A program made the translations under genes and the position numbers. A stretch of 64,000 nt of DNA. Source: Stutzerimonas stutzeri. GTDB taxonomy: Bacteria > Pseudomonadota > Gammaproteobacteria > Pseudomonadales > Pseudomonadaceae. A model generated the notes under the pieces. That model searched no databases and was not told the origin of the DNA. It worked only from the letters and a program-made list of their open reading frames with translations. This document shows, in pieces, positions 625 through 14,555 of the stretch (position 1 is the stretch's first letter; every line of letters begins with the position of its first letter). The DNA lies in NCBI RefSeq assembly GCF_024448985.1, contig NZ_JAMOII010000013.1, positions 34,833-98,832 of the forward strand, in the 5' to 3' direction.

Positions 625-978
625 TCAGCTACCGCGATAAGTGGAGTAGCTGTACGGAGAAATCAGTAGCGGCACGTGGTAATGATCCTGCTCGGCGCTG
701 ATGCCGAAGCGCAACACGACGACATCCAGAAATGCCTGCTCGGGCAGTTGTACGCCGCGACCACGGTAGTAATCGCCGGCACTGAACTGCAGTTGGTAAA
801 CACCGGAACGGTAGTCATCCCCTTCCAGCAGTGGTGAATCGCAACGGCCATCAGCATTGGTCTGGCGCGTAGTGATCAGCTCGAGGCGCTCGCCTTCGAC
901 CCGATAGAGTTCGATGCGGATGTCGCTACCAGGGCAGCCGTGGGCGGCATCCAGTACGTGAGTAGTCAAACGTCCCAT
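625..978 (-). CDS. uraH: 5-hydroxyisourate hydrolase (transthyretin-like)
   Basis: This enzyme hydrolyses 5-hydroxyisourate, the product of urate oxidation, to OHCU, the second step of ureide formation. The 117-residue protein has the family's N-terminal TTHVLD signature and ends in YRGS, the C-terminal tetrapeptide that separates HIU hydrolases from true transthyretins. The start at 978 gives the usual N-terminus MGRLTTHVLD. An in-frame ATG at 990 is possible, and the only strong purine-rich site (AGGAGG, 1015-1020) is too far from either start. The gene is transcribed away from puuE, and a TTGT-NN-ACAA palindrome lies in the shared upstream region. The function follows from family membership; its purine role is reinforced by the neighbouring puuE, uraD and puuD. 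Confidence 0.93.
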   Translation of the reverse strand: MGRLTTHVLDAAHGCPGSDIRIELYRVEGERLELITTRQTNADGRCDSPLLEGDDYRSGVYQLQFSAGDYYRGRGVQLPEQAFLDVVVLRFGISAEQDHYHVPLLISPYSYSTYRGS

Positions 979-1088: not shown

Positions 1089-1104
1089 AAATTGTACACA
1101 ATTT
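1089..1104. promoter_or_regulatory. TTGT-NN-ACAA operator before uraH
   Basis: AAATTGT-AC-ACAATTT is a 16-base dyad with perfect seven-base arms. On the minus strand it covers TACAAT (complement of 1091-1096), a good -10 match for uraH. The same core recurs before puuE, the second permease and the TetR gene. The arms resemble the GT-N-N-AC core of GntR-family operators, but the binding protein is unknown. Confidence 0.6.
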
Positions 1105-1229
1105 ATAGAGCTACAATCCTGACTGCCACGCTGCCGCTCTCCGATGCGCTATCCAGAGCGTGCACCTTCATGAAAGAGCGTGGAATCTCTACGACGCCAG
1201 CGACACGCGAGAAAATTTAGGATTGGTGA

Positions 1230-1258
1230 TTTACAAACTGCAAAACGTTTTGTATACA
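1230..1258 (+). promoter_or_regulatory. Sigma-70-type promoter of puuE
   Basis: TTTACA (1230-1235) and TATACA (1253-1258) are separated by 17 bases. Both hexamers are close to consensus. The -10 hexamer lies inside the palindrome at 1250-1259, as expected for a repressor-occluded promoter. Confidence 0.6.
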
Positions 1259-1259
1259 A
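1250..1259. promoter_or_regulatory. TTGTATACAA operator over the puuE -10 element
   Basis: This perfect 10-base palindrome coincides with the -10 hexamer of the predicted puuE promoter. It shares the TTGT-NN-ACAA form of the sites at 1089, 6528, 13804 and 13823. Confidence 0.6.
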
Positions 1260-1322
1260 TTGACCCATGGCGGTCGTACAGTAATTCACGGTGGCGACCC
1301 GTATTCAAATAAGGAATAACAA

Positions 1323-2255
1323 GTGAGCGCCGACTACCCTCGTGACCTTATCGGCTACGCCGAAAACCCACCCCATCCGCAATGGCCGGGCAATGCCCGC
1401 ATCGCCCTCTCCTTCGTGCTCAATTACGAAGAAGGCGGCGAGCGCTGCGTATTGCATGGCGACAAGGAGTCTGAAGCCTTTCTCTCCGAGATGGTTTCTG
1501 CCCAGCCGTTTCAGGGCGTGCGTCACATGAGCATGGAGTCGCTCTACGAATACGGCAGCCGCGCCGGTGTTTGGCGCCTGCTCAAGCTATTCCGCAAGCA
1601 CGATATTCCGCTGACCATTTTTGCCGTGGCCATGGCCGCGCAACGGCATCCGGACGTGATCAAGGCGATGGTCGCCGATGGCCACGAGATCTGCAGCCAC
1701 GGCTATCGCTGGGTCGACTATCAGTACATGGACGAGGCCGAAGAGCGCGAGCATATGCTTGAGGCCATCCGCATCCTGACCGATATCACTGGTGAACGTC
1801 CGCTGGGCTGGTACACCGGCCGCACCGGCCCGAACACACGCCGTCTGGTACGCGAGGAAGGCGGTTTCCTCTATGACTGCGACACCTACGACGACGATCT
1901 GCCCTACTGGGACCCCGAATCCACTCCGGACAAGCCGCATCTGGTGATCCCCTACACGCTGGACACCAACGACATGCGCTTCACCCAGGTGCAGGGCTTC
2001 AACACCGGCGACGACTTCTTCAAGTACCTGAAGGATGCCTTCGATGTGCTCTATGCCGAAGGCACCGAGGGCGCGCCCAAGATGCTGTCCATCGGGATGC
2101 ACTGTCGCCTGCTGGGTCGCCCGGCACGTCTGGCCGCACTGCAGCGCTTCGTCGAGTACGCCAAGAGTCACGAGCAGGTATGGTTCGCCCGCCGTGTCGA
2201 TATCGCACGCCACTGGCACGCCACTCACCCTTTGAAACAGGAACCCGCCGCATGA
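1323..2255 (+). CDS. puuE: Allantoinase PuuE (polysaccharide-deacetylase fold)
   Basis: PuuE hydrolyses allantoin to allantoate. This 310-residue protein belongs to the NodB/polysaccharide-deacetylase fold rather than the amidohydrolase-type AllB. The conserved N-terminal part reads DLIGYAENPPHPQWPGNARI, and a NodB-like GHEICSHGYRW segment supplies a metal/catalytic histidine. The GTG start at 1323 follows AAGGA at 1311-1315. The stop overlaps the uraD start (ATGA), indicating translational coupling. A sigma-70-type promoter with an overlapping TTGTATACAA palindrome lies 65-95 bases upstream. Confidence 0.93.
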   Translation: MSADYPRDLIGYAENPPHPQWPGNARIALSFVLNYEEGGERCVLHGDKESEAFLSEMVSAQPFQGVRHMSMESLYEYGSRAGVWRLLKLFRKHDIPLTIFAVAMAAQRHPDVIKAMVADGHEICSHGYRWVDYQYMDEAEEREHMLEAIRILTDITGERPLGWYTGRTGPNTRRLVREEGGFLYDCDTYDDDLPYWDPESTPDKPHLVIPYTLDTNDMRFTQVQGFNTGDDFFKYLKDAFDVLYAEGTEGAPKMLSIGMHCRLLGRPARLAALQRFVEYAKSHEQVWFARRVDIARHWHATHPLKQEPAA

Positions 2256-2767
2256 GCCGTTTTCAGACTTTGCAGCCTTCCAGCCTCGACCGCGACGCGT
2301 TCGTTGCCGCCTTCGCCGACATTTACGAGCACTCGCCCTGGGTCGCCGAGCAGGCTTATGACAAGGGAGTCGATGCCAGTCTCGACGACATCGAGACGCT
2401 GCATGCACGCATGGCCGACATACTCTTGAGCGCGCCGCGTGAAACGCAGCTGGCGTTGATCAACGCGCACCCGGATCTGGCCGGCAAGGCCGCCGTGCGT
2501 GGCGAGCTGACAGCCTCCAGCACCTCGGAGCAGGCCGGCGCCGGCATCCATGAATGCACCGCTGAGGAATTCGCACGCTTCACCGAGCTGAACGAGGCCT
2601 ACAAGGACAAGTTCGGTTTCATCTTCATCATGGCGGTCAAGGGCAGCAACCGGCACCAGATCCTGGCGGCGTTCGAGGAACGTCTGCACAACACCCCGGA
2701 GCAGGAATTCGACCGGGCAGTGAGCGAGATCAACAAGATCGCGCTGTTCCGTCTGCAGACGATGTGA
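2252..2767 (+). CDS. uraD: OHCU decarboxylase
   Basis: UraD decarboxylates 2-oxo-4-hydroxy-4-carboxy-5-ureidoimidazoline (OHCU) stereospecifically to S-allantoin, completing the conversion begun by urate oxidase and UraH. The 171-residue product has the family motif INAHPDLAGKA with the catalytic histidine at about residue 73, followed by the conserved E-Q-A-G segment and FIMAVKG. The start is fixed by the four-base overlap with the puuE stop. A longer open frame beginning at 2180 runs through puuE and is not the gene. The pair puuE-uraD is one transcription unit. Confidence 0.93.
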   Translation: MSRFQTLQPSSLDRDAFVAAFADIYEHSPWVAEQAYDKGVDASLDDIETLHARMADILLSAPRETQLALINAHPDLAGKAAVRGELTASSTSEQAGAGIHECTAEEFARFTELNEAYKDKFGFIFIMAVKGSNRHQILAAFEERLHNTPEQEFDRAVSEINKIALFRLQTM

Positions 2768-2915
2768 GCAAAGCGTCGGAGGCGAAACCATTGGCTTCGC
2801 GGCAAGCCGCCGCGTAGCCAAGCAACAGAATGAAGCAAGCCTCTGCCATGCGCCGAGGGACGGGGTGAGAGTCTCATCCCACTCGAATAACAACGAACAC
2901 ACGAGTAACCCAGCC

Positions 2916-3428
2916 ATGCGCATACTCAAGATCGAACCGTTGACCAAGGAAGCCTTCGCCCCTTTCGGTGATGTGATCGAAACCGAAGGCAGCGACTACT
3001 TCATGATCAACAACGGTTCCACCCGCCGCTATCACAAGCTGGCGTCGGTAGAGACCGCGCAGCCGGAAGATCAGGCCATCATCAGCATCTTCGCCGCCGA
3101 TGCGTTGGAGATGCCGCTGGCCATTCGCATGCTCGAACGACATCCGCTGGGCAGCCAGGCGTTCATTCCGCTGCTCGGCAACCCCTTTCTGGTCGTGGTC
3201 GCGCCACTTGGCGATGCACCTGTACCGGGACACGTCCGCGCCTTCCGTAGCAACGGCAGGCAGGGCGTCAATTACCACCGCGGCGTCTGGCACCACCCGG
3301 TGCTGACGATCGAAAAGCGGGATGAATTCCTGGTGGTCGATCGCAGCGGTTCTGGCAACAACTGCGACGAGCATTTTTTTACTGAGGATGAGCTGGTTCT
3401 CCTCGACCCCCACCGGGACTCCGAGTAA
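2916..3428 (+). CDS. allA: Ureidoglycolate lyase
   Basis: This enzyme cleaves ureidoglycolate to glyoxylate and urea, the last step of the urea-releasing allantoate route. The 170-residue protein matches the AllA/ureidoglycolate lyase family (N-terminus ILKIEPLTKEAFAPFGDVIE; YHRGVWHHP motif in the C-terminal half). The family fold is a cupin-like barrel. The ATG at 2916 was preferred to the upstream in-frame start at 2865, which adds 17 non-family residues. The ribosome binding site is weak. An allantoicase, needed to make its substrate, is not in this window and must be elsewhere. The gene lies 148 bases after uraD in the same direction. Confidence 0.9.
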   Translation: MRILKIEPLTKEAFAPFGDVIETEGSDYFMINNGSTRRYHKLASVETAQPEDQAIISIFAADALEMPLAIRMLERHPLGSQAFIPLLGNPFLVVVAPLGDAPVPGHVRAFRSNGRQGVNYHRGVWHHPVLTIEKRDEFLVVDRSGSGNNCDEHFFTEDELVLLDPHRDSE

Positions 3429-3578
3429 GCGTCCGATTGTTACCGAGGGCCATCCCGGCGCGGCTGACGTGCACAGCCGACACCGGACATGCGTTTTCAG
3501 AACAAACGAGACACCTGCGACGAGTCGAATAAGAAGAAACATCGGTTGGTACGCCAGCCGTGCAAAGAGGTAATTATC

Positions 3579-4832
3579 GTGGAAGCACATCTGACCGAAT
3601 GGCTGAACCTGAGTATTCGCTGGATTCACATGATCGTCGGCATCGCCTGGATCGGTGCATCGTTCTACTTCGTCTGGCTGGAAAACAACCTTAACCGTGC
3701 CAACCCGCGAGATGGCCTGTCCGGCGATCTTTGGGCGATCCACGGCGGTGGTATTTACCACCTGGAAAAATACAAACTCGCGCCTCCGCAAATGCCGGAG
3801 AATCTGCACTGGTTCAAGTGGGAGGCCTATACCACCTGGCTGTCGGGCGTCGCCCTGCTGATGGTGGTCTACTACCTCAACCCCAGTTTGTACCTGGTCC
3901 TGCCTGGCAGCGGCATGTCCCCTGCTACAGCGGTGGCCATCGGCTTCGGCTCGCTGATCGTCGGCTGGTTCATCTATGACCTGCTTTGCGACTCGCCGCT
4001 GGGCAAGAAGCCAGCGCTGCTCGGCCTCGTCCTGTTCGTTCTGGTGATCGCCGCGTGCTGGGGCTACTCGCAGATCTTCAGCGGTCGCGCTGCCTACATC
4101 CATACCGGTGCACTGATCGGCACCATCATGGTCGGCAACGTGTTCCGCATCATCATGCCGGCCCAGCGCGCGCTGGTCGCCGCCATCGAGCAGAACCGCA
4201 CGCCCGACCCGCTGCTGCCGGCCAAAGGCCTGCTGCGCTCGCGTCACAACAACTACTTCACCCTGCCGGTGCTGTTCATTATGATCAGCAACCACTTCCC
4301 GAGCACCTACGGCAGCCAGTACAACTGGTTGATCCTGGCTGCACTCGGCGCGTTGTCGGTACTGGCTCGCCATTACTTCAACACCCGCCACGACAGCAAC
4401 CGCTTCGCCTGGGCACTACCTGCTGCGGCAGTCGGCATGATTTGCCTGGCCTTCGTGCTGTCGCCGAATCGTCAACCCGCTGCACCCAACCTGGCCGCCA
4501 CCTCCCCGGAGCAAGCGAGCATGTCGGCGCAACAGAGCGGTACTGCCGAGGCCGAGACCGTGGCCGGCAACAGCGAGTTCGCCAAGGTCAAGCAGGTAAT
4601 CGACGAACGCTGCACCGTTTGCCACGCAGCCCAGCCGAGCAGCCCGCTATTCAGCGCGCCACCCGCCGGGGTCATGTTCGACACGCCCGAGCAGATCAAA
4701 CTGCAGGCTGCGAAGATTCATGCGCAGACCGTCGCCAGCCAGATCATGCCGCTGGGTAACATGACCAACATGACCCAGGAAGAGCGCGACCTGCTCGGCG
4801 CCTGGATCGACAAGGGCGCGTCGATCAACTGA
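3579..4832 (+). CDS. puuD: Membrane urate oxidase with C-terminal cytochrome c (PuuD)
   Basis: PuuD oxidises urate to 5-hydroxyisourate and passes electrons to a covalent heme instead of making hydrogen peroxide as soluble uricase does. The 417-residue protein has an N-terminal multi-span membrane domain (DUF989/urate hydroxylase type, about residues 1-290, starting VEAHLTEWLNLSIRWIHMIV), then a linker and a cytochrome c domain. The heme motif is CTVCH (C345, C348, H349), with a plausible methionine ligand in the segment IMPLGNMTNM. The GTG start at 3579 has GAGG eight bases before it; the upstream ATG at 3489 lacks one. A strong terminator follows directly, ending the puuE-uraD-allA-puuD group. 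Confidence 0.9.
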   Translation: MEAHLTEWLNLSIRWIHMIVGIAWIGASFYFVWLENNLNRANPRDGLSGDLWAIHGGGIYHLEKYKLAPPQMPENLHWFKWEAYTTWLSGVALLMVVYYLNPSLYLVLPGSGMSPATAVAIGFGSLIVGWFIYDLLCDSPLGKKPALLGLVLFVLVIAACWGYSQIFSGRAAYIHTGALIGTIMVGNVFRIIMPAQRALVAAIEQNRTPDPLLPAKGLLRSRHNNYFTLPVLFIMISNHFPSTYGSQYNWLILAALGALSVLARHYFNTRHDSNRFAWALPAAAVGMICLAFVLSPNRQPAAPNLAATSPEQASMSAQQSGTAEAETVAGNSEFAKVKQVIDERCTVCHAAQPSSPLFSAPPAGVMFDTPEQIKLQAAKIHAQTVASQIMPLGNMTNMTQEERDLLGAWIDKGASIN

Positions 4833-4845
4833 TCGTGTCCGCAAG

Positions 4846-4871
4846 CCGCGCTTTCGAGCGCGGTTTTTTTT
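4846..4871 (+). terminator. Rho-independent terminator after puuD
   Basis: A perfect seven-base stem CCGCGCT/AGCGCGG with a TTCG tetraloop is followed by eight T residues. It begins 14 bases after the puuD stop codon. Confidence 0.9.
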
Positions 4872-5002
4872 GTTCCCAGCCCTTCACTCACGAATAGCCG
4901 TAACAGGGTTCTGCCCTGCCAGAATCACAGCTCGAAAATCGGCCTCGCACGTTCAGCGGGGCCACGCGACATCCAATAACAAAAGCGTCCGAGGTGTTTT
5001 GC

Positions 5003-6352
5003 ATGAACGATGTAACCCAGCGGGAAACCGCGCCCGTTACAGAAAAGCAGCTGCCTTTGCTGCAGATGCTGCTGGTGAGTTTTCAGCACGTACTGCTGAT
5101 GTATGGCGGGGCCGTCGCCGTGCCCCTGATTGTCGGCCAGGCAGCCGGTCTCTCTCGTGAGGAGATCGCTTTCCTGATCAATGCCGATCTGCTGGTGGCG
5201 GGCATTGCCACGATCGTTCAATCCATGGGGATCGGTCCGGTCGGCATTCGCATGCCGGTAATGATGGGCGCCAGCTTCGCTGCGGTCAGCAGCATGGTTG
5301 TCATGGCCGGCATGCCTGGCGTAGGAATGACAGGTATCTTCGGCGCCACCATCGCTGCCGGCTTCTTCGGACTGCTGATCGCGCCTTTCGTCTCCAAGAT
5401 TGTCCGCCTGTTTCCGCCGCTGGTGACCGGTACGGTGATCACCGCCATTGGCCTATCGCTATTCCCCGTGGCGGTGAACTGGGCCGGCGGCGGCAGCACC
5501 ACTGGCCAATTCGGCGCCCTGCCCTACCTCGGCGTAGCAGCTGCGGTGCTGACCGTGATTCTTCTGATCAATCAGTTTATGCGTGGCTTCTGGGTCAACG
5601 TCTCGGTACTGGTGGGCATGGCGCTGGGTTACGTGCTGGCGGCCAGCCTGGGGATGGTCGATTTGTCGGGCATCAGCTCGGCGCCGGCGTTCCAAGTGGT
5701 CACGCCGAATCACTTCGGCGCGCCGCAATTCCTCCTCGCGCCGATTCTGTCTATGTGTCTGGTGGTGGTGATTATCTTCGTCGAGTCAGCCGGCATGTTC
5801 CTCGCGCTAGGCAAGATCACGGGACAGGACGTCGACCCCAAGCAGCTGCGCCGCGGTCTGCTGTGTGATGCCGGAGCAACTTTCTTTGCCGGCTTCATGA
5901 ACACCTTCACGCATTCGTCCTTCGCGCAGAACATCGGTCTGGTGCAGATGACCGGCGTGCGTAGCCGCTACGTGACTGCGGTTGCGGGACTCTTCCTCAT
6001 CAGCCTGAGCCTGCTGCCAAAGGCCGCGTTCATGGTAGCCTCGATTCCCGCAGCGGTATTGGGCGGTGCAGGCATCGCCATGTTCGGCATGGTCGCAGCC
6101 ACGGGCATCAAGATCCTGCAGGAAGCCGATATCGGTGACCATCGCAACCAGCTATTGGTCGCGGTGAGCATCGGTCTAGGCATGGTGCCGGTGGTTCGCC
6201 CCGAATTCTTCGCGCATCTGCCGCATTGGATGGAGCCCATCACCCACAGCGGAATCGCCGTAGCCACCATCAGCGCTGTGACGCTGAATCTGCTGTTCAA
6301 TGTACTCGGCGGGCCGGAGCGCAATGCGCTGACCGGTGCGACTCAACACTGA
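5003..6352 (+). CDS. NCS2 nucleobase permease (urate/xanthine type)
   Basis: This 449-residue inner-membrane transporter belongs to the nucleobase:cation symporter-2 family, with about 12-14 hydrophobic segments. The NCS2 signature is clear: FAQNIGLVQMTGVRSRY in the C-terminal half and MGIGPVGIRMPVMMGASFA near the N-terminus. The ATG at 5003 follows GAGG with an eight-base spacer; an in-frame GTG at 4994 overlaps that site and is less likely. Its place between the urate oxidase and a second NCS2 gene suggests urate or xanthine as substrate. The family also includes uracil permeases, so the exact substrate is inferred from context. Confidence 0.85.
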   Translation: MNDVTQRETAPVTEKQLPLLQMLLVSFQHVLLMYGGAVAVPLIVGQAAGLSREEIAFLINADLLVAGIATIVQSMGIGPVGIRMPVMMGASFAAVSSMVVMAGMPGVGMTGIFGATIAAGFFGLLIAPFVSKIVRLFPPLVTGTVITAIGLSLFPVAVNWAGGGSTTGQFGALPYLGVAAAVLTVILLINQFMRGFWVNVSVLVGMALGYVLAASLGMVDLSGISSAPAFQVVTPNHFGAPQFLLAPILSMCLVVVIIFVESAGMFLALGKITGQDVDPKQLRRGLLCDAGATFFAGFMNTFTHSSFAQNIGLVQMTGVRSRYVTAVAGLFLISLSLLPKAAFMVASIPAAVLGGAGIAMFGMVAATGIKILQEADIGDHRNQLLVAVSIGLGMVPVVRPEFFAHLPHWMEPITHSGIAVATISAVTLNLLFNVLGGPERNALTGATQH

Positions 6353-6527
6353 TCGATAGTGAGGGCGCCGCGACGGAACGCGGCGCCATACCTATTTCGC
6401 GTCTCCTCAACCATCAACGAAACCTCGCCGCCGACTGCCACCCTGCCGGACACCACGCCACGCGCTAAACCCGGCCGCACTAGCCACCCATACGGCATCA
6501 GTCACGTTCCAGATCGCGCTCGTCGCA

Positions 6528-6539
6528 ATTGTGCACAAT
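6528..6539. promoter_or_regulatory. TTGTGCACAA operator before the second permease
   Basis: ATTGTGCACAAT is a perfect 12-base palindrome of the same form as the sites before puuE, uraH and the TetR gene. It lies just upstream of the predicted -35 element at 6554. Confidence 0.55.
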
Positions 6540-6553
6540 AGTTAAATTAATTG

Positions 6554-6583
6554 TTTAACCTAATGTTCACAGGTTGCTATAGT
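6554..6583 (+). promoter_or_regulatory. Putative promoter of the second permease
   Basis: TTTAAC (6554-6559) and TATAGT (6578-6583) are separated by 18 bases. The -10 is good and the -35 moderate. The inverted repeat GTTAAA/TTTAAC overlaps the -35 region. Confidence 0.45.
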
Positions 6584-6670
6584 CAACTCATCCTGACCGC
6601 CGAAACAACTTTTCTGCGACCAGCGATCGGGGTCCGTGCAACCCCAAAGCCCATGACCGAACAATAACTA

Positions 6671-8185
6671 ATGGCAGGCTTGACCATGACCGCAACCGAA
6701 TCCAGGAGCGGTGACGCTCCCAACCAGGACCTGATCTATCAACTCGAGGATCGCCCGGGTCCGCTTCCCGCCACCTTCGCCGCCGTCCAGCACGTGCTGG
6801 CCAGTTTCGTTGGCGTCATCACTCCAACCCTGATCATCGGCAGCGTGCTTGGCCTGGGCGAGTACGTGCCCTATCTGGTGAGCATGGCGCTGTTCGTGTC
6901 CGGCCTCGGCACCTTCATTCAAGCCAAACGAATTGGCCCAGTCGGCGCTGGCATGCTCTGCCTGCAAGGCACCAGTTTCGGCTTTCTCAGCGTGATCCTA
7001 GCGGCGGGCTTCATCGTCAAGGGTCGCGGTGGCAGCCCGGAAGAAATCCTGGCCACTCTGTTCGGTGTCGGTTTCTGCGCAGCATTCGTCGAAATCGCCG
7101 TCAGTCAATGCATAAATCGACTGCGCAGAATCATCACGCCGGTGGTTACCGGCACCATCATTAGTCTGATGGGTCTGTCGCTGATTAAAGTTTCGATGAC
7201 CGATATTGCTGGGGGGTACGGGGCTGAAAATCCCGGTGCGCTACCGAATCTGATGCTGGCCGGGCTGGTACTCGGCACCATCATCTTGCTGAACCGTTTT
7301 GGTTTCCCCCTGCTGCGGCTATCGGCAGTGATCGTGGCACTGGCCGTCGGTTACTTTGCCGCCTGGATGATGGGCATGGTTGATTTTTCCAGCCTCGCCA
7401 CGCTTCCAGCGGTCAGCGTGCCGCAGCCGTTTAGGTTCGGCTTCGCCTTCGACTGGATGGCGTTCATCCCAATCGCGGTCATCTTTTTGATCACCCCACT
7501 GGAGACGGCCGGCGACCTGACCGCCAACTCGATGATTTCGCGCCAGCCGGTCAAGGGCCCGCTCTATTTGAAGCGAATCAAGGGCGGCATTCTCGGTGAC
7601 GGCTGCAGCTCGCTGTTGGCCGCCACCTTCAACAGCTTGCCGATGACCACATTCAGCCAGAACAACGGCGTGATTCAGCTGACCGGCGTTGCCAGCCGCC
7701 ATGTAGGGCTGTACATCGCTGGCATCCTGATTCTGCTGGCATTGTTTCCTGCGGTTGGTGGCGTGCTGCAGTTGATGCCCAAGCCGGTACTCGGTGGCGC
7801 CACGCTGATCATGTTCGGTACCGTCGCCATCGCTGGGATCAAGATCCTTGCCGAAGCGGGCCTGAACCGTCGCAACATGCTCATCGTCGCCGTCTCACTG
7901 GGTCTCGGACTGGGCGTCGCCGCAGTGCCGGATGTGCTGAGCAACTTGCCTGATGTGTTGAAGAATATCTTCGGCTCGCCGATCACCATCGGTGCCTTCA
8001 GCGCAATCCTGCTCAATTTCTTCCTGCCCCGCGAACCGGAAGAAATGGACGACTATGACCCCGACAACCTGATCGAGGATTCGGTTGGCACCAATACCTT
8101 GGCAGTCAACATCCCGGATTACTCCAAGGACACAAAGAAGGCCACCAGCAACGATACCTCAGCGCACCTGACACCAACGGGCTGA
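6671..8185 (+). CDS. NCS2 xanthine permease-like transporter
   Basis: This 504-residue protein is a second NCS2 symporter, only distantly similar to the one at 5003. It carries the signature FSQNNGVIQLTGVASRHVG, close to that of the XanP/XanQ xanthine permeases. The N-terminal HVLASFVGVITPTLIIGSVL and LQGTSFGF segments also fit the purine branch. A hydrophilic C-terminal tail of about 45 residues is acidic. The start could instead be the ATG at 6686, preceded by GGCAGG with a seven-base spacer; the ATG at 6671 has a poor site. It has its own promoter with a TTGTGCACAA palindrome, and a Tsx-like porin gene follows 74 bases later. Confidence 0.87.
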   Translation: MAGLTMTATESRSGDAPNQDLIYQLEDRPGPLPATFAAVQHVLASFVGVITPTLIIGSVLGLGEYVPYLVSMALFVSGLGTFIQAKRIGPVGAGMLCLQGTSFGFLSVILAAGFIVKGRGGSPEEILATLFGVGFCAAFVEIAVSQCINRLRRIITPVVTGTIISLMGLSLIKVSMTDIAGGYGAENPGALPNLMLAGLVLGTIILLNRFGFPLLRLSAVIVALAVGYFAAWMMGMVDFSSLATLPAVSVPQPFRFGFAFDWMAFIPIAVIFLITPLETAGDLTANSMISRQPVKGPLYLKRIKGGILGDGCSSLLAATFNSLPMTTFSQNNGVIQLTGVASRHVGLYIAGILILLALFPAVGGVLQLMPKPVLGGATLIMFGTVAIAGIKILAEAGLNRRNMLIVAVSLGLGLGVAAVPDVLSNLPDVLKNIFGSPITIGAFSAILLNFFLPREPEEMDDYDPDNLIEDSVGTNTLAVNIPDYSKDTKKATSNDTSAHLTPTG

Positions 8186-8195
8186 TCACCCTTGC

Positions 8196-8219
8196 GCCAG
8201 GGCACAACAGTGCCCTGGC
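8196..8219. other. Strong hairpin between permease and porin genes
   Basis: GCCAGGGCAC and GTGCCCTGGC form a perfect ten-base stem with a four-base loop. No T-tract follows, so it is more likely an RNA-stabilising or partial-attenuation hairpin than a full terminator. Such a structure could set different levels of permease and porin from one transcript. Confidence 0.6.
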
Positions 8220-8259
8220 AGCACTGCATTCACAACAACAAAACCAAAGGGCACTCCGC

Positions 8260-9063
8260 ATGAACTTCAAACTCGCTCCTCTTTCGCTGGCGCTGGCCGG
8301 CAGCCTGCTTGCCGCTCCGGCCTTCGCCGAGATGCATTGGCAGAACAACAGCCTGACGTACCTGTACGGCAAGGATTTCAAGGTCAACCCACCGATCCAG
8401 CAGACGATCACGTTCGAGCATGCCAGCGGCTGGAGTTGGGGCGACATGTTCCTGTTCGTCGACAACATCTGGTACAACGGCGTCAGTGGCGGTGATGGAC
8501 ATACCTACTACGGCGAATTCAGCCCACGCCTATCGCTGGGCAAGATGACCGGTCAGGATATGTCCTTCGGCCCGATCAAGGACGTTCTGATTGCCGCTAC
8601 CTACGAGCGCGGCGAGGACCGCAACCGTAACTACCTGCTCGGGCCGGCCGTCGACCTGTCTGTTCCTGGTTTCGATCGTTTCAATGTCAATGTCTATTAC
8701 CGCAAGCCCGACGGCATTACCGGCAACCCCGGCGGCCAGTGGCAGATCACCCCGACTTGGGCGATGACCATTCCGGTCGGTAAGTCCGATATCCTGTTTG
8801 ACGGCTACATCGACTGGGTAGTCAACGATGCCGGCTCCGAGAGCCGCGGCGATTTCGTCTCGAAACACCTGCACATCAACCCGCAGATCAAATACGACCT
8901 GGGCAAGGCGATGGACGGTGAACCCGGCAAGCTCTACGTGGGTATCGAGTACGACTACTGGGCCAACAAATACGGCATCGAGGACGGCGGGCCTCTGAGC
9001 GAGAACGTCGTCGGCCCAACCGACCAAAACACCTTCAGCCTGCTGGTGAAGGCGCACTTCTGA
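8260..9063 (+). CDS. Tsx-like outer-membrane nucleoside channel
   Basis: This 267-residue protein is a predicted outer-membrane beta-barrel of the nucleoside-specific channel (Tsx) family. It has a clear signal peptide (MNFKLAPLSLALAGSLLAAPAFA), alternating beta-strand-like segments and a terminal phenylalanine. The conserved W-Q-N-N-S and FEHASGWSWGD motifs are typical of the family. An AAGGG site precedes the ATG at 8260. It follows the second permease in the same direction, so it probably lets purines or nucleosides across the outer membrane for that permease. Substrate specificity is inferred from context. Confidence 0.85.
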   Translation: MNFKLAPLSLALAGSLLAAPAFAEMHWQNNSLTYLYGKDFKVNPPIQQTITFEHASGWSWGDMFLFVDNIWYNGVSGGDGHTYYGEFSPRLSLGKMTGQDMSFGPIKDVLIAATYERGEDRNRNYLLGPAVDLSVPGFDRFNVNVYYRKPDGITGNPGGQWQITPTWAMTIPVGKSDILFDGYIDWVVNDAGSESRGDFVSKHLHINPQIKYDLGKAMDGEPGKLYVGIEYDYWANKYGIEDGGPLSENVVGPTDQNTFSLLVKAHF

Positions 9064-9080
9064 TCGCCTGCTGTTACGTA

Positions 9081-9109
9081 GGATGGGGTGATGGGTTATC
9101 ACCCCATCC
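9081..9109. repeat. GTAGGATGGG-type palindromic repeat
   Basis: GGATGGGGTGAT and ATCACCCCATCC form a perfect 12-base stem with a five-base loop, preceded by ACGTA. A related sequence, ACGTAGGATGGGTGAAATCCATC, starts at about 21071, so this is probably a dispersed intergenic repeat. It lies 18 bases past the porin stop codon. Confidence 0.5.
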
Positions 9110-9123
9110 CTCAAACAGCTAAC

Positions 9124-9169
9124 GAACGAAACCCCGCGAATCCAGACTGGAACGCGGGGTTTCGTTTTT
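9124..9169. terminator. Bidirectional terminator between porin and chemoreceptor genes
   Basis: CGAAACCCCGCG and CGCGGGGTTTCG form a 12-base stem around a 14-base loop, with TTTTT after it on the plus strand. The opposite strand ends in a weaker T-rich run. It separates the converging genes at 8260 and 9264. Confidence 0.75.
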
Positions 9170-9263
9170 ACGAGTACTTTTATTTCTGATCGGAGCTAGC
9201 TGTGCCCTGCTTGCCCCTTTCATGATTGAAGGACGCCGGTTTTCACCGGCGCCCTTTCGCTCA

Positions 9264-11195
9264 TCACAACTTGAAGCTTCCCATCTGCCGGCTCAGGTCG
9301 TCCGCCAGGCGACTCAACGCGTGGCAGTCCTCGCGGCAGCCCTGTACATCACTGGCGGTCGCTTGGGCGAGGTCGGCGATGCCCTGGACGTTGCGAGTGA
9401 TTTCTTCGGTCACGCTGCTCTGCTCTTCGGTCGCTGCCGCCACTTGGGCATTCATGTCGCTGATCGCTTCCACCTGCTCGGTGATCGCGTTCAATGATTG
9501 ACCGGTACGCTGGCTGGCCTGCACACCGGTGCCGGTGGCTGCTTGCCCGGCATGCATCGAGCTGACAGCATTGTCCGCACCGCTCTTGAGACCCTGAATC
9601 ATCTGCTGGATCTCATCGGTCGATGCCTGGGTGCGGCTGGCCAGCGTACGCACCTCATCGGCGACAACCGCAAAACCGCGCCCCATCTCTCCGGCACGTG
9701 CCGCTTCGATGGCGGCGTTAAGCGCCAGCAGATTAGTCTGCTCCGAAATGCTGCGGATCACCGCCAACACTTTGTCGATGGATGCAACCTGCTGAGCAAG
9801 GTCGGTCACCGATTCAGCGGCACGACCGATCTCACCGGACATTTTTTCAACGTGCGCGATGGACTCACCGACTACGCTGCCCGCTAGCAGCGCTTCGTCA
9901 CGCGCACCCTGCGACGCCTGTGCCGCACTACTGGCGTTACGAGCGATCTCCTGCACCGTCAGGCCCATTTCGTTGACGGCCGTGGCGACCATGTCGGTCA
10001 TCTCGTTCTGGCGCTCGGCACGGGTTGCGGTGTTGTCGACCACTTCCGCCACCTGCCCCACCGCGGTACGCAACTGCTGGCTGGTACTCAGCACGTCGCC
10101 GATGAGGCCGCGCAGACTGCCAATGAAACGGTTGAAACCACGTGCCAGATCACCCAGCTCATCGGCACGGCTCTCGTCCAGCCGACGGGTCAGGTCGCCG
10201 CCACCGCCACCGATTTCCACCAGCGCCGAGGTCACCTGACGGATAGGCCGAACCAGCCCGCGTGCCAGCAGCACCACCAGCCCTAGGAAGAAGAGCGCGA
10301 TACACGCGGCGATCAGGCTGATGGTCCACAGCGTGCGTCGCGCTTCACCGAAGATCTCCGCCTCGGGAACCTCGCTTACCAATAACCAGCCCAAGCCTTC
10401 GATCGGTTGAGCCACTGCAAGGATGACCTCGCCGTCACGCTCGAAACGTATCGCCTTGTTGCCGCCAGCAAGCAGTTCCTGGGCCGCTTGCGCACTGGTC
10501 AAGGTGCGAAGCTCGGTACGATCATTGTGCTCGGTAGCCGGATGGACCTTGACCCGGCCATCGCTGCCGACCAGATAGACATTCCCACGCTCGCCGAAAC
10601 GGAAATTGCTGATCAGCTCGGACATGCTTTTCAGGCTGTACCCTAGCCCCGCCACGCCGAGCGTCTTGCCGCCGGAACTGATGCGTTGATTGATGAACAG
10701 CGTTGGCTGGCGTGAGGCCTTGTCGATGTCGATCTCGATGCGCTGTTCGATATTGCCGTCGATCAGGCTGTAGAACCAACTGTCGGCAGCAGCACCGCGG
10801 TTGAGCGTACGCGACAGGCCCGTCTCGGAGTAGTAGTTGCCGCTCTCCAGCACCACGACCGAGGTCGTCAGCGCATTCTGCTGCATCTTCACGCCGTCGA
10901 GGTAGCGACTGATCGCGGCCGCCCGGTCCGCACTCTCGCCATCGCGCAACCACTCCTGCACGAAGGTATTACCGGCGATGCCGCCCGTCGCGGTGATAGG
11001 CTCCGCCAGGGTGCGTTGGATATCGTTACGGATCGCGGTGACGTTGGCTGGCAGCGCTTCTCCGATCAGATAGCGTTCTGCCAGACGGTTGACCGCCGAA
11101 GAATAAACGGCGATTACGATCAGAATGCTTGTGAGCAGGGCCGCCCCCATACTTATGATCAACTGCCACTGAATACTGCGTCGCATGAAAGACAT
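9264..11195 (-). CDS. Methyl-accepting chemotaxis protein with periplasmic Cache-like domain
   Basis: This 643-residue chemoreceptor has a first transmembrane helix at about residues 10-32 and a periplasmic ligand-binding region (about 35-285) with double-Cache-like features ([33 protein letters not shown]). A second helix at about 290-315, a HAMP domain and the cytoplasmic signalling region follow. The hairpin tip reads [20 protein letters not shown] and is fully conserved. The first ATG at 11195 has a GCGAGA site. It faces the purine genes across a terminator. Pseudomonas has a known chemoreceptor for metabolisable purines (McpH of P. putida), so a purine-related ligand is possible, but I cannot read ligand specificity from the sequence. 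Confidence 0.9.
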
Positions 11196-11244
11196 GGAGG
11201 TATCTCGCTTTGTTTTTTCTTAACGTACACATTTAATTGCTGAA

Positions 11245-11254
11245 ATGTATACGA
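11245..11254. promoter_or_regulatory. Weak TTGTATACAA-like site between chemoreceptor and cyclase genes
   Basis: ATGTATACGA matches eight of ten positions of the palindrome before puuE. It lies in the divergent promoter region between the genes at 9264 and 11385. It may be chance. Confidence 0.2.
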
Positions 11255-11384
11255 AATATTAGCTTCTAGAGCTTAAATGGCTATCGGCCATGTTTTCGAT
11301 GCCTTTAGATACCGTCCGGCGGCTCGGCAATTGCGCTCGGGCTAAGCGCCTCGCCAGCATTAGTCGGGCTCACAAGGGGAATGG

Positions 11385-12845
11385 ATGTATCAACCGAATC
11401 TGAAGCAGACCACGCTGCTGACGTTGCTTGCCTTCATCATCGGGCTAGGCTTCTTGATCGCGACCATCGCCAATTACTTCGCGTCACGTGACACCATCCG
11501 CCACAGCATCATCGGCACCGAGCTTCCCTTGACGGCAGACGTGATCTCCCTGGAGCTGCAAAAGGAGCTGGTCAAGCTGGTTCAGGTCTCTTCCGCCATG
11601 GCCGACGATCCGTTACTGCTCGACTGGGTGGATCAGGGTGAGCGCAACACGAAGCTGATCACTCGCTACCTTCAAGCCATCAAGAAGCGTTACGACACTT
11701 CAAACGCCTTCTTCGCCTCTGATCGCTCGCAGATCTACTACACCGATGATGCACACCAGCCCATGCGGCCCGATGAGCCGGCGCACCACTGGTTCTACCG
11801 TTTCGAAGGTGCCGGGACGCCTTGGGAAGTCGTCGTGGATGTCCGGCGTCTGACCTTGTTTCTCAATCATCGAATGACAGCAAGTGATGGCTCGTTCCTC
11901 GGTGTGGCCGGGGTTGGTATGAGCCTGGATCGCATGCGTCATTTAATGGATACCTATCAACGGCGCTATCAGCGCACTATCTACTTCGTCGATAGCCAGC
12001 AGAACGTCGTCGTAACCGGTAGCGAAGCCGGCTCGGAAGATATTCCGCGCGGTGCTCATCTGGGCGATATCCCTGCGCTGCACGGCCTCAAGCAGCAATT
12101 GCGCGAACTGCGTACCGGTTCGTTCCTCTACCGGAACGACGGCGAGCAGCATTTCATCAACATCCGCTACATCCCTGAATTGAACTGGTATCTGATGGTG
12201 GACAAGCGCGAAAGCAACGTCATGGCGCCAGTACAGCGCACCTTATGGATCAATCTGCTGATCGGATTCAGCGTCATGGTGATAGTGCTCGGGCTGGTGG
12301 GCTCGATCAGCCGCCGCTATTTGCAACGCATCGAAGCCATGGCCATCCACGATGCGCTAACCGAGTTGCTCAACCGGCGCGGCTTCGGCCTGGTCGCCGA
12401 GCAGGCGATGCTTGAAGCAAAACGCCAGCGTAGCGACCTTTGCGTACTGATCTTGGATCTCGATCATTTCAAGACATTCAACGATACCTACGGCCACCTC
12501 GGCGGCGACTTTCTCTTGCGCAGCTTCGCCAGGCTACTGGCCCGGCAAATACGCCAGAGCGACTTGATATCGCGCTGGGGCGGCGAAGAGTTCGTGATCA
12601 TGTTCAAAGACACCGAACTGGCCACCGCGCTGGCGCTAGCGGAGAAAATCCGTGCAGCCACCGAGGCTGCAACATTCGACTTCGAAGGCACGCCATTGCG
12701 AGTGACGGTCAGCATAGGCGCGGCCCAACTGTTACCGGGCGGTAACCTGGAGTCGCTATTGGGTGACGCCGATCGGGCCCTGTATCGGGCGAAGAACGGC
12801 GGACGCAACCAGGTCTGCAGCGCAGCGGGCACAGCCGACAGGTGA
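11385..12845 (+). CDS. Membrane diguanylate cyclase with Cache sensor
   Basis: This 486-residue protein makes cyclic di-GMP from two GTP. A transmembrane helix (about 12-32), a periplasmic double-Cache-like domain (about 40-275), a second helix (about 282-305) and a C-terminal GGDEF domain are visible. The active site is GGEEF at 399-403 with an inhibitory I-site RQSD at 390-393, at the canonical five-residue spacing, so it should be active and product-inhibited. Its periplasmic domain resembles that of the neighbouring divergent chemoreceptor in layout (LFLNHRMTASDGSFLGVAGVG versus [20 protein letters not shown]), which suggests related ligands. Confidence 0.9.
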   Translation: MYQPNLKQTTLLTLLAFIIGLGFLIATIANYFASRDTIRHSIIGTELPLTADVISLELQKELVKLVQVSSAMADDPLLLDWVDQGERNTKLITRYLQAIKKRYDTSNAFFASDRSQIYYTDDAHQPMRPDEPAHHWFYRFEGAGTPWEVVVDVRRLTLFLNHRMTASDGSFLGVAGVGMSLDRMRHLMDTYQRRYQRTIYFVDSQQNVVVTGSEAGSEDIPRGAHLGDIPALHGLKQQLRELRTGSFLYRNDGEQHFINIRYIPELNWYLMVDKRESNVMAPVQRTLWINLLIGFSVMVIVLGLVGSISRRYLQRIEAMAIHDALTELLNRRGFGLVAEQAMLEAKRQRSDLCVLILDLDHFKTFNDTYGHLGGDFLLRSFARLLARQIRQSDLISRWGGEEFVIMFKDTELATALALAEKIRAATEAATFDFEGTPLRVTVSIGAAQLLPGGNLESLLGDADRALYRAKNGGRNQVCSAAGTADR

Positions 12846-12862
12846 TCATCGCCACCGATGCG

Positions 12863-13681
12863 CTAGTTGCTGGCGGGCTCCTTGGCCTTCTGTCGCTGCA
12901 GAAACTCGATTTTCCACTGCTCCATGCCGATGTATTCCGATGACAGGTTCGCCTCCACCTGATGCTTGGCTTTAAGCGCGGCGACGGCGGGCTGCTGGAT
13001 CTTGAGGTAGCGGTCGAGATGCTCGATCAGTTCGGGATGATCAAGGCTGGATAGGTTGAAGGTGCTTCGTGTGTGCGGCAAATCGGCATCAAAGACCAGC
13101 GCTCCCGGCTTGGCGCGCACGTTGTTCAAGTAATGCGCCGCCACCACCACGTTGTAATAGGCACCATCGCTATCCTTGAGCAGTGCCTGACGCACCATTC
13201 GCGGCAGGTTCTCGCTACTGACCAGCAAAATCTGGTTGGCTGCGACCCGGTCCTCGTAGCCCCAGGGCGTCCAGCCATCGACCACCGCTAACCGCCTGAG
13301 TTCATCGATACCTCGCCCCACGCGCCGCGGCGCCACCATCACACCATCGACATAACTAACGACCGCTTGGCTGTAGTGCAGCCGATGACCAGATTTAGCG
13401 GGTCCGGACCAGTTGGGATTATCGGGATACTTCGCATCGACACGGCCGTCCAGCAGCGCAGGCAACAGCTCATCTGCGGGTAACACCTTGTATGTCAGAC
13501 GCACACCGCTATACGCGGCGAAACTGTCCAATAATTCTCGGGCGAAGCCCCCGTAGTTGCCTTTCGCATCGCCGCTGTAGTGCGGCATGAACGCTGCCTG
13601 CTCGACGCCGATTACGTAGGTTTGCTCGGCGGCTACAGGCACTGAAAGCGCCAGCAAGGCGACCGCAAGAAATTTCTTCAT
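12863..13681 (-). CDS. Orphan periplasmic solute-binding protein (SBP_bac_3 type)
   Basis: This 272-residue secreted protein has a signal peptide (MKKFLAVALLALSVPVAAEQ) and the two-lobe layout of ABC amino-acid-type binding proteins (GGFARELLDSFAAYSG, LPALLDGRVDAKYPDNP). The start at 13681 follows AAGGAG at 13687-13692; a much longer open frame upstream to 14059 overlaps the TetR gene and is rejected. No ABC permease or ATPase gene is nearby, so it may act as an orphan binding protein or sensor partner. It diverges from the TetR regulator, with two TTGT-NN-ACAA palindromes in the gap. It converges with the diguanylate cyclase, 17 bases apart. Confidence 0.8.
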   Translation of the reverse strand: MKKFLAVALLALSVPVAAEQTYVIGVEQAAFMPHYSGDAKGNYGGFARELLDSFAAYSGVRLTYKVLPADELLPALLDGRVDAKYPDNPNWSGPAKSGHRLHYSQAVVSYVDGVMVAPRRVGRGIDELRRLAVVDGWTPWGYEDRVAANQILLVSSENLPRMVRQALLKDSDGAYYNVVVAAHYLNNVRAKPGALVFDADLPHTRSTFNLSSLDHPELIEHLDRYLKIQQPAVAALKAKHQVEANLSSEYIGMEQWKIEFLQRQKAKEPASN

Positions 13682-13803
13682 TTGGAACTCCTTGTAAGTG
13701 GGACGACCCGCTCGGCAGACTCGGGGCGAGCCGGCAGGAAATGCGAAAGGCGATATCCATGACGCTGCACTGACGACAGTAGCGTAGCAGCGTTTTTTTA
13801 GAA

Positions 13804-13813
13804 TTGTGCACAA
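13804..13813. promoter_or_regulatory. TTGTGCACAA operator, first of two, TetR/binding-protein gap
   Basis: A perfect 10-base palindrome, identical in core to the site at 6528. It lies between the divergent genes at 12863 and 13932. Confidence 0.55.
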
Positions 13814-13822
13814 AGACTTAAG

Positions 13823-13838
13823 TATTTGTTCACAAATA
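13823..13838. promoter_or_regulatory. TTTGT-TC-ACAAA operator, second of two
   Basis: TATTTGT-TC-ACAAATA is a 16-base dyad with perfect seven-base arms. Its centre lies 22 bases, about two helical turns, from the palindrome at 13804. This suits cooperative binding of two dimers. Confidence 0.55.
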
Positions 13839-13846
13839 CACGGTTT

Positions 13847-13858
13847 GACGGGCCCGTC
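13847..13858. promoter_or_regulatory. GACGGGCCCGTC palindrome before the TetR gene
   Basis: This perfect 12-base palindrome lies 74 bases before the TetR start codon. It differs from the TTGT-NN-ACAA sites and could be an autoregulatory operator. No function can be shown from sequence alone. Confidence 0.3.
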
Positions 13859-13931
13859 TTGAGACGCTCTTAAGGCCGGTGCTAGCATGCTGCGGCAGGC
13901 CACCAGGGTGGTCGTGAATTGAACAGGCCCT

Positions 13932-14555
13932 ATGTCCAGTATCCGCGAGCGCAACAAAGAATTGATCCTGCGCGCTGCCAGTGAAGAATTCGCCGAAAAG
14001 GGCTTCGCCGCCAGCAAGACCAGCGACATCGCCGACCGCGCCGGGCTGCCCAAGCCCAACGTTTATTACTACTTCAAGAGCAAGGAAAACCTCTATCGCG
14101 AGGTGCTCGACAGCATTGTCGAGCCGCTGCTGCAAGCATCTGCCCCCTTCAATCAGCCCGGCGAACCCGCCGATGTGTTGCGCGCCTATATCCGCACCAA
14201 AATCCGGATTTCACGCGAGCACGCCTGCGCCTCTAAAGTGTTCGCAAGCGAAATCATGCATGGCGCGCCTCATTTGCCAGCCGAGCGGGCGGAGCAGCTC
14301 AACGCCCAGGCCAGCCACAACGTGGCTCGCATTCAGGGCTGGATCGATCAAGGACTGATGGCGAAGGTCGATCCCAATCATCTGTTGTTCAGCATCTGGG
14401 CTGCGACCCAGACCTATGCCGATTTCGACTGGCAGATATCCACCGTGACGGGAAAATCCTCTCTTGACGATGCAGATTACGAAGCCGCTGCCGATACGAT
14501 CATTCGTATGGTCATCAGGGGTTGCGAGGTAAAGGAAACGTCGGCCGTCAGCTGA
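13932..14555 (+). CDS. TetR-family regulator, RutR-like
   Basis: This 207-residue regulator has an N-terminal helix-turn-helix (AASEEFAEKGFAASKTSDIA, then GLPKPNVYYYFKSKENLYREVL). Its C-terminal domain resembles E. coli RutR, the uracil/thymine-sensing regulator of pyrimidine and purine breakdown: compare HLLFSIWAATQTYADFDWQI with QHLIFMIWASTQHYADFAPQV recalled from RutR. A purine or pyrimidine ligand is therefore plausible. It lies divergent to the solute-binding protein, with two TTGT-NN-ACAA palindromes and a GACGGGCCCGTC palindrome in the gap. It is a candidate repressor for the palindromes before the purine genes, but the operator reported for RutR (TTGACCA-type) differs, so an unlinked GntR regulator is an alternative. 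Confidence 0.85.
   Translation: MSSIRERNKELILRAASEEFAEKGFAASKTSDIADRAGLPKPNVYYYFKSKENLYREVLDSIVEPLLQASAPFNQPGEPADVLRAYIRTKIRISREHACASKVFASEIMHGAPHLPAERAEQLNAQASHNVARIQGWIDQGLMAKVDPNHLLFSIWAATQTYADFDWQISTVTGKSSLDDADYEAAADTIIRMVIRGCEVKETSAVS

Follow-up and report, generated by a model that had tools for sequence, protein, structure and literature searches.

A 64-kb stretch of a Stutzerimonas stutzeri genome (hereafter the window; its contig is C13) carries a set of genes for urate breakdown and purine uptake, and five copies of a short palindrome, TTGTNNACAA, lie in their control regions and in the gap between a solute-binding-protein gene and a tetR gene. Here we consider which regulator reads this palindrome and which genes it would control, and we point to a GntR-type regulator that is encoded just beyond the left edge of the window. 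The features concerned are as follows, in window coordinates unless another contig or locus is named.

About -2754 to -1999 (C13:32078-32833; L016:12079-12834), minus strand: GntR/FCD regulator gene, gntR (PF00392, 63.6 bits, cut-off 27; PF07729, 83.7 bits, cut-off 24.3)
L016:13168-14547: purine permease gene divergent from gntR (Pfam Xan_ur_permease; no NCBIfam match)
625..978, minus strand: uraH, hydroxyisourate hydrolase (TIGR02962, 132.7 bits, cut-off 87.45)
1089..1104 (core 1092-1101): predicted operator palindrome AAATTGT-AC-ACAATTT upstream of uraH, perfect arms of 7 bases
1250..1259: predicted operator palindrome TTGTATACAA upstream of puuE, perfect arms of 4 bases
1323..2255, plus strand: puuE, allantoinase (TIGR03212, 540.9 bits, cut-off 424.6)
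2252..2767, plus strand: uraD, OHCU decarboxylase (TIGR03164, 230.2 bits, cut-off 96.25)
2916..3428, plus strand: allA, ureidoglycolate lyase (NF002949, 307.2 bits, cut-off 230; the match begins at residue 18 of the open reading frame (ORF) 2865-3428)
3489..4832, plus strand: puuD, membrane urate oxidase, start uncertain (PF06181 Urate_ox_N, 432.1 bits)
4994..6352, plus strand: pbuX1, first NCS2 permease, lacking its own site (TIGR03173, 508.1 bits, cut-off 414.15)
6528..6539: predicted operator palindrome ATTGTGCACAAT upstream of pbuX2, perfect arms of 5 bases
6671..8185, plus strand: pbuX2, second NCS2 permease (TIGR03173, 430.1 bits, cut-off 414.15)
12863..13681, minus strand: periplasmic solute-binding protein (family 3) with paired sites in its promoter (PF00497, 26.8 bits, cut-off 26.4)
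13804..13813: predicted operator palindrome TTGTGCACAA between the binding-protein gene and tetR, perfect arms of 4 bases
13822..13839: second gap palindrome, GTATTTGT-TC-ACAAATAC, perfect arms of 8 bases, 22 bp from the first
13859..13888, plus strand: promoter-like element of tetR, TTGAGA-18-TAGCAT
13932..14555, plus strand: tetR, RutR-like TetR regulator, unlikely to read the sites (PF08362, 197.6 bits)

The initial annotation had described five palindromes of one form before uraH, before puuE, before the second permease and in the gap from which the binding-protein gene and tetR diverge, and all five were located: exactly five TTGTNNACAA 10-mers occur in the window (1092-1101, 1250-1259, 6529-6538, 13804-13813 and 13826-13835), compared with a mean of 0.43 and a maximum of 2 over 100 shuffles of the window. 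Its statement that all sites are intergenic holds when genes are taken with their family-matched starts (the uraH family match begins at 978, ~114 bp from its site, and the binding-protein gene starts at 13681); longer mechanical ORFs with alternative starts overlap the first site (uraH, TTG at 1101) and the last two sites. Two sites are indeed long-armed as described, with true arm lengths of 7 and 8 bases rather than 7 in both, and the last palindrome begins at 13822, not at 13823.

Across the whole genome (4.23 Mb in 52 contigs, each place counted once), TTGTNNACAA was found at 17 places and a reversed control pattern at 28. Genome-wide over-representation was thus not seen, and enrichment was dropped as an argument since the control exceeds the motif. 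This low count, together with the five of the 17 sites that were judged to lie inside genes, is what would be expected if the palindromes were a chance or functionless repeat; none of the 100 shuffles reached five sites in the window, however, and conservation at fixed genes is near-complete (see below), so that we give this explanation practically no weight, and for the purine promoters it is already refuted. The motif exceeds chance because of its clustering and conservation and not because of its genome-wide number: 7 of the 17 sites fall within 15.7 kb (C13:32933-48667; binomial P about 2e-13).

Beyond the left edge of the window, two further sites (-1899 and -1770 in window coordinates) lie between gntR and the divergent purine permease gene, the product of which is presumably AzgA. 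The gntR gene adjoins the cluster, ~2 kb outside the left end of the window, and has its own copy of the site, which corrects the initial description of the candidate GntR regulator as unlinked. The nearest named relatives of its product are from Stutzerimonas stutzeri (98%), and guanine deaminase and xanthine dehydrogenase genes lie farther left of gntR and the permease. Five FCD regulators were found in the genome, and an exact site adjoins only the cluster GntR and a second GntR on contig C26. Among the remaining 10 sites, the five judged inside genes (on C2, C7, C10 (two) and C20) are covered by ORFs of 294-931 amino acids and were rejected as operators and treated as chance; the others precede an NCS1 permease, an aminohydrolase, a glyoxalase-superfamily gene, sugE and the C26 GntR gene. 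At the uraH, binding-protein/TetR, C8, C16 and C28 sites, which mechanical ORFs overlap as well, the family-matched starts were judged real.

Conservation was assessed in the best 80 of 546 loci matched by the GntR protein (1.55 Mb, almost all of it assigned by title to Stutzerimonas or Pseudomonas), and a site was counted when it lay within 350 bp upstream of a gene. Rows were left out if <60% of the query aligned, if the alignment started after residue 25 or if <350 bp lay upstream; permease rows were also left out if <60% identical or if they matched the other permease better, and a second amidohydrolase was excluded. These loci contain 248 sites, whereas four other palindromes built from the same bases occur there 10, 9, 8 and 8 times. 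A site is present upstream of gntR in 79/80 loci (the exception is L086), of the divergent permease gene in 68/68 relatives, of uraH in 56/56, of puuE in 56/56 and of linked pbuX2 in all 10 relatives with enough upstream DNA, where gntR and the permease share one gap, as do uraH and puuE, and a single site may count for both genes. The two-base centres of the 248 sites are AT (105), GT (105), GC (31), CG (6) and GA (1). No site was found in the 80 loci upstream of xdhA (0/66), xdhB (0/67), xdhC (0/71) or guaD (0/72), and xdh and guaD were rejected as targets because no upstream site occurs in 66-72 relatives each. Nor was one found there upstream of uraD (0/56), allA (0/54), puuD (0/39), pbuX1 (0/24) or tsx (0/27); the window operator at 1250 would also serve the genes after puuE.

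To relate the site to a regulator, we searched 198 family genomes, 143 of which have puuE, and chose 59 puuE promoters from 56 genomes. These were sorted by their best GntR match into a close-orthologue tier (20 loci), a tier with a ~40% identical homologue (27 loci from 25 genomes) and a tier with nothing better than ~5e-22 (12 loci from 11 genomes). An exact site was found in 19/20, 24/27 and 0/12 promoters, respectively (reversed control: 0, 1 and 0), and a site with one mismatch in 20/20, 24/27 and 1/12. Two of the three middle-tier misses are second puuE copies (G035 and G046), and the other copy in those genomes has a site. Between the two candidate readers that the initial annotation had named, this co-distribution of the site with gntR favours the GntR regulator.

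Unlinked genes were examined over 400 bp upstream in loci from whole genomes, this one among them, with counts for exact sites and for up to one mismatch and with reversed DNA as the control. Under these settings puuE has a site in 30/30 loci, both exact and with one mismatch. The C8 site precedes an NCS1 permease gene (PF02133, 273.5 bits; below NCBIfam cut-offs, that for allantoin permease included, at 240.7 versus 620), beside a gene that is presumably ureC; this permease has an exact site in 9/25 loci and a one-mismatch site in 25/25, of which 24 lie at 158-166 bp and one at 21 bp. The C16 site precedes an (S)-ureidoglycine aminohydrolase gene (5/10 exact, 10/10 with one mismatch), and another copy, with one mismatch, follows 33 bp later. 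For the binding-protein gene the counts are 7/14 and 14/14; one gene is split (L246, G199), and its second fragment was left out of these figures. The exact reversed control gave 0 for all four genes. Applying 300 bp upstream, the glyoxalase-superfamily gene on C28 (C28:14295-14729; L017:4996-5430), which has a ATTGTATACA site before its start, has an exact site in 9/11 loci and a one-mismatch site in 11/11 at a distance of 21-25 bp, with none in the control on either count. The C19 gene, presumably sugE, was examined over the same distance in 30 of 35 matching genomes and rejected as a target, with 2/30 exact and 10/30 one-mismatch sites (control 0 and 3); chance remains the likely explanation for its site, as for the in-gene copies.

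The other candidate reader had been the RutR-like TetR protein (13932-14555), which would read the palindromes and repress the purine genes. Two sites do lie in the gap upstream of tetR, and PMC12694930 proposes PA1504, a RutR-type TetR protein close to the allantoin genes of P. aeruginosa, as a possible regulator in that species. We compared 30 TetR loci (own genome included; 84.5-100% identical), the top-ranking ones among 40 strong matches to the TetR protein in 39 genus genomes. A one-mismatch site was found upstream of tetR in 11/11 loci with a divergent binding-protein gene versus 3/19 without it (Fisher P about 7e-6), and an exact site in 7/11 and 2/19, respectively; a pair of one-mismatch sites 22-23 bp apart occurs in 4/29 other TetR loci. 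In G211, a one-mismatch site precedes the binding-protein gene even though neither TetR copy is on the same contig. Since the site keeps to the binding-protein gene and not to TetR, the gap sites probably serve the binding-protein promoter. The initial proposal of one operator tying urate breakdown, purine uptake and this promoter together is supported. The presence of the site upstream of gntR in nearly all relatives, and the RutR operator, which is different, likewise speak against TetR, which we rejected as the reader of the palindrome and consider highly improbable in that role.

As for tetR's own control, its promoter is kept as TTGAG..-TAGSAT in 28/30 TetR loci. A RutR-spaced TTGAC-N6-GTC palindrome near 13847-13862 was rejected as a tetR operator, being seen in this genome alone among the 30 loci. 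The tetR leader (window 13890-13931) holds an inverted repeat, GGCCACC...GGTGGTC, which was seen by eye with a variable spacer in many of the 30 aligned loci and may be a hairpin or a TetR operator.

Given the computed sites, their clustering, their conservation and their co-distribution with gntR, TTGTNNACAA is very probably the operator of the GntR/FCD repressor, an apparent orthologue of P. aeruginosa UgmR (PA1520) that would be relieved by uric acid; the orthology is proposed on the basis of family, neighbourhood and function. Several points weigh against this assignment. The division into GntR tiers matches that into genera, which makes the samples non-independent and lets shared descent inflate the co-distribution, and the one-mismatch reversed control reached 2/20, 10/27 and 1/12 in the three tiers. 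The same control gave 1/30 for puuE, 0/25 for the NCS1 permease, 3/10 for the aminohydrolase and 4/14 for the binding protein, and exact sites are fewer than one-mismatch sites at the permease (9/25), the aminohydrolase (5/10) and the binding protein (7/14). A lone binding-protein gene and a lone TetR gene in the 80 loci lack an exact site (0/1 each). The likeness to PA1520 is one of family, neighbourhood and function, and the binding of GntR to the sites is a prediction from sequence comparison. Finally, the targets of UgmR in P. aeruginosa reportedly include the region before gcl, but the gcl locus here (L164, 4,770 bp) contains neither TTGTNNACAA nor [AT]TGTNNACA[AT], and gcl was rejected as a target.

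Control might also be shared, with another FCD-type GntR of the same core, such as the C26 protein, binding some of the sites. The second FCD-type GntR gene (C26:36666-37397; L018) has ATTGTCGACAAT, with a CG centre, ~75 bp upstream of its own start, and TKGT/ACMA cores are common to FadR-subfamily regulators (PMC4494728). The CG centre is rare, however, at 6 of the 248 sites in relatives, and the puuE site follows the cluster GntR gene. We therefore regard shared control as improbable, if less so than a TetR reader, and ATTGTCGACAAT is likely to be the self-operator of the C26 GntR gene. That regulator is presumably PrpR-like.

Under control by the cluster GntR protein, we infer that the repressor, presumably as a dimer, would occupy the palindromes without inducer and stop transcription of its own gene, the divergent permease, uraH, puuE (and then uraD, allA, puuD and pbuX1), pbuX2 and the binding-protein gene, as well as the unlinked allantoin-type permease and ureidoglycine aminohydrolase genes; binding, repression and the extent of the puuE operon are all proposed steps of this scheme. 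Xanthine dehydrogenase, whose genes have no site, would make uric acid. By analogy with UgmR, uric acid would then bind the FCD domain and release the repressor, and the pathway downstream of urate would open. The site distribution suggests that control begins at urate and not at xanthine dehydrogenase.

Among 41 genus genomes, the aminohydrolase was found in 10, the NCS1 permease in 25, the binding protein in 14, the glyoxalase-superfamily gene in 11 and sugE in 35. Across the 40 other genus genomes, the binding protein occurs in 13, the glyoxalase-superfamily gene in 10 and both in 9 (Fisher P about 2e-5, uncorrected for relatedness; the four remaining pairs of the five compared were not significant). 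Where both genes lie on one contig (G129, G205 and G201), they are some 80-100 kb apart. Since these two genes share the operator and co-occur, we suggest tentatively, at a little under an even chance, that the urate repressor regulon reaches beyond the known purine genes to an undescribed module, in which the unstudied binding protein and the glyoxalase-superfamily protein (C28:14319-14729), likewise unstudied, would serve in uptake or sensing and in processing of a purine derivative. Both genes are candidates for a part in purine catabolism in Stutzerimonas and relatives. Overall, a palindrome that had no explanation can now be assigned to a defined regulon and to a named candidate for its reader, and the TetR assignment is corrected.

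Two sensory genes were also observed in the window. The chemoreceptor at 9264-11195 (minus strand) has a dCache domain that matches the purine receptor McpH (PDB 8bmv, E 1e-66) and, by eye, keeps the published purine-motif residues with Asn replacing Asp169 (motif as given in PMC11245519); it probably senses purines and lies within the purine locus. The diguanylate cyclase at 11385-12845 (plus strand) has a dCache-like sensor (41.3 bits, below the cut-off of 45) in which the purine motif is kept only in part, by eye, and it may link purines to cyclic di-GMP.

Taken together, the comparisons point to a genuine regulon, of a type already known, some of whose members may be undescribed. No publication pairing TTGTATACAA with GntR was found in the partial library searched, those listed for TTGTATACAA alone being unrelated by title, and the operator may be published elsewhere. 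With respect to RutR, the window TetR protein is distantly related to it (PDB 6z1b and 3loc, E about 6e-39) and scores below the TIGR03613 RutR cut-off (171.4 versus 368 bits), and the palindrome does not follow it (3/19 TetR loci without a binding-protein gene). As to operator form, HpxS, PrpR, UxuR and other FadR-subfamily regulators have published TKGT/ACMA palindromes whose halves are 2 nt apart (Suvorova et al. 2015, PMC4494728). TTGT-NN-ACAA, with 248 sites in the 80 loci, fits the FadR-subfamily form TKGT-NN-ACMA as defined there, and resembles the operators of the HpxS group, with their rarer 2-nt spacing. UgmR, a GntR-family protein of P. aeruginosa, acts upstream of the allantoin genes, and its repression is reportedly relieved by uric acid (PMC12694930). 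The system described here resembles it in having a GntR regulator beside a purine/allantoin cluster, which would likewise act upstream of allantoin genes and be linked to uric acid. The regulator combines a GntR helix-turn-helix with an FCD domain, and its predicted operators stand before uraH and puuE (56/56 each). UgmR itself presumably has an FCD domain too. Here the binding-protein, ureidoglycine aminohydrolase, NCS1 permease and glyoxalase-superfamily genes have sites as well.

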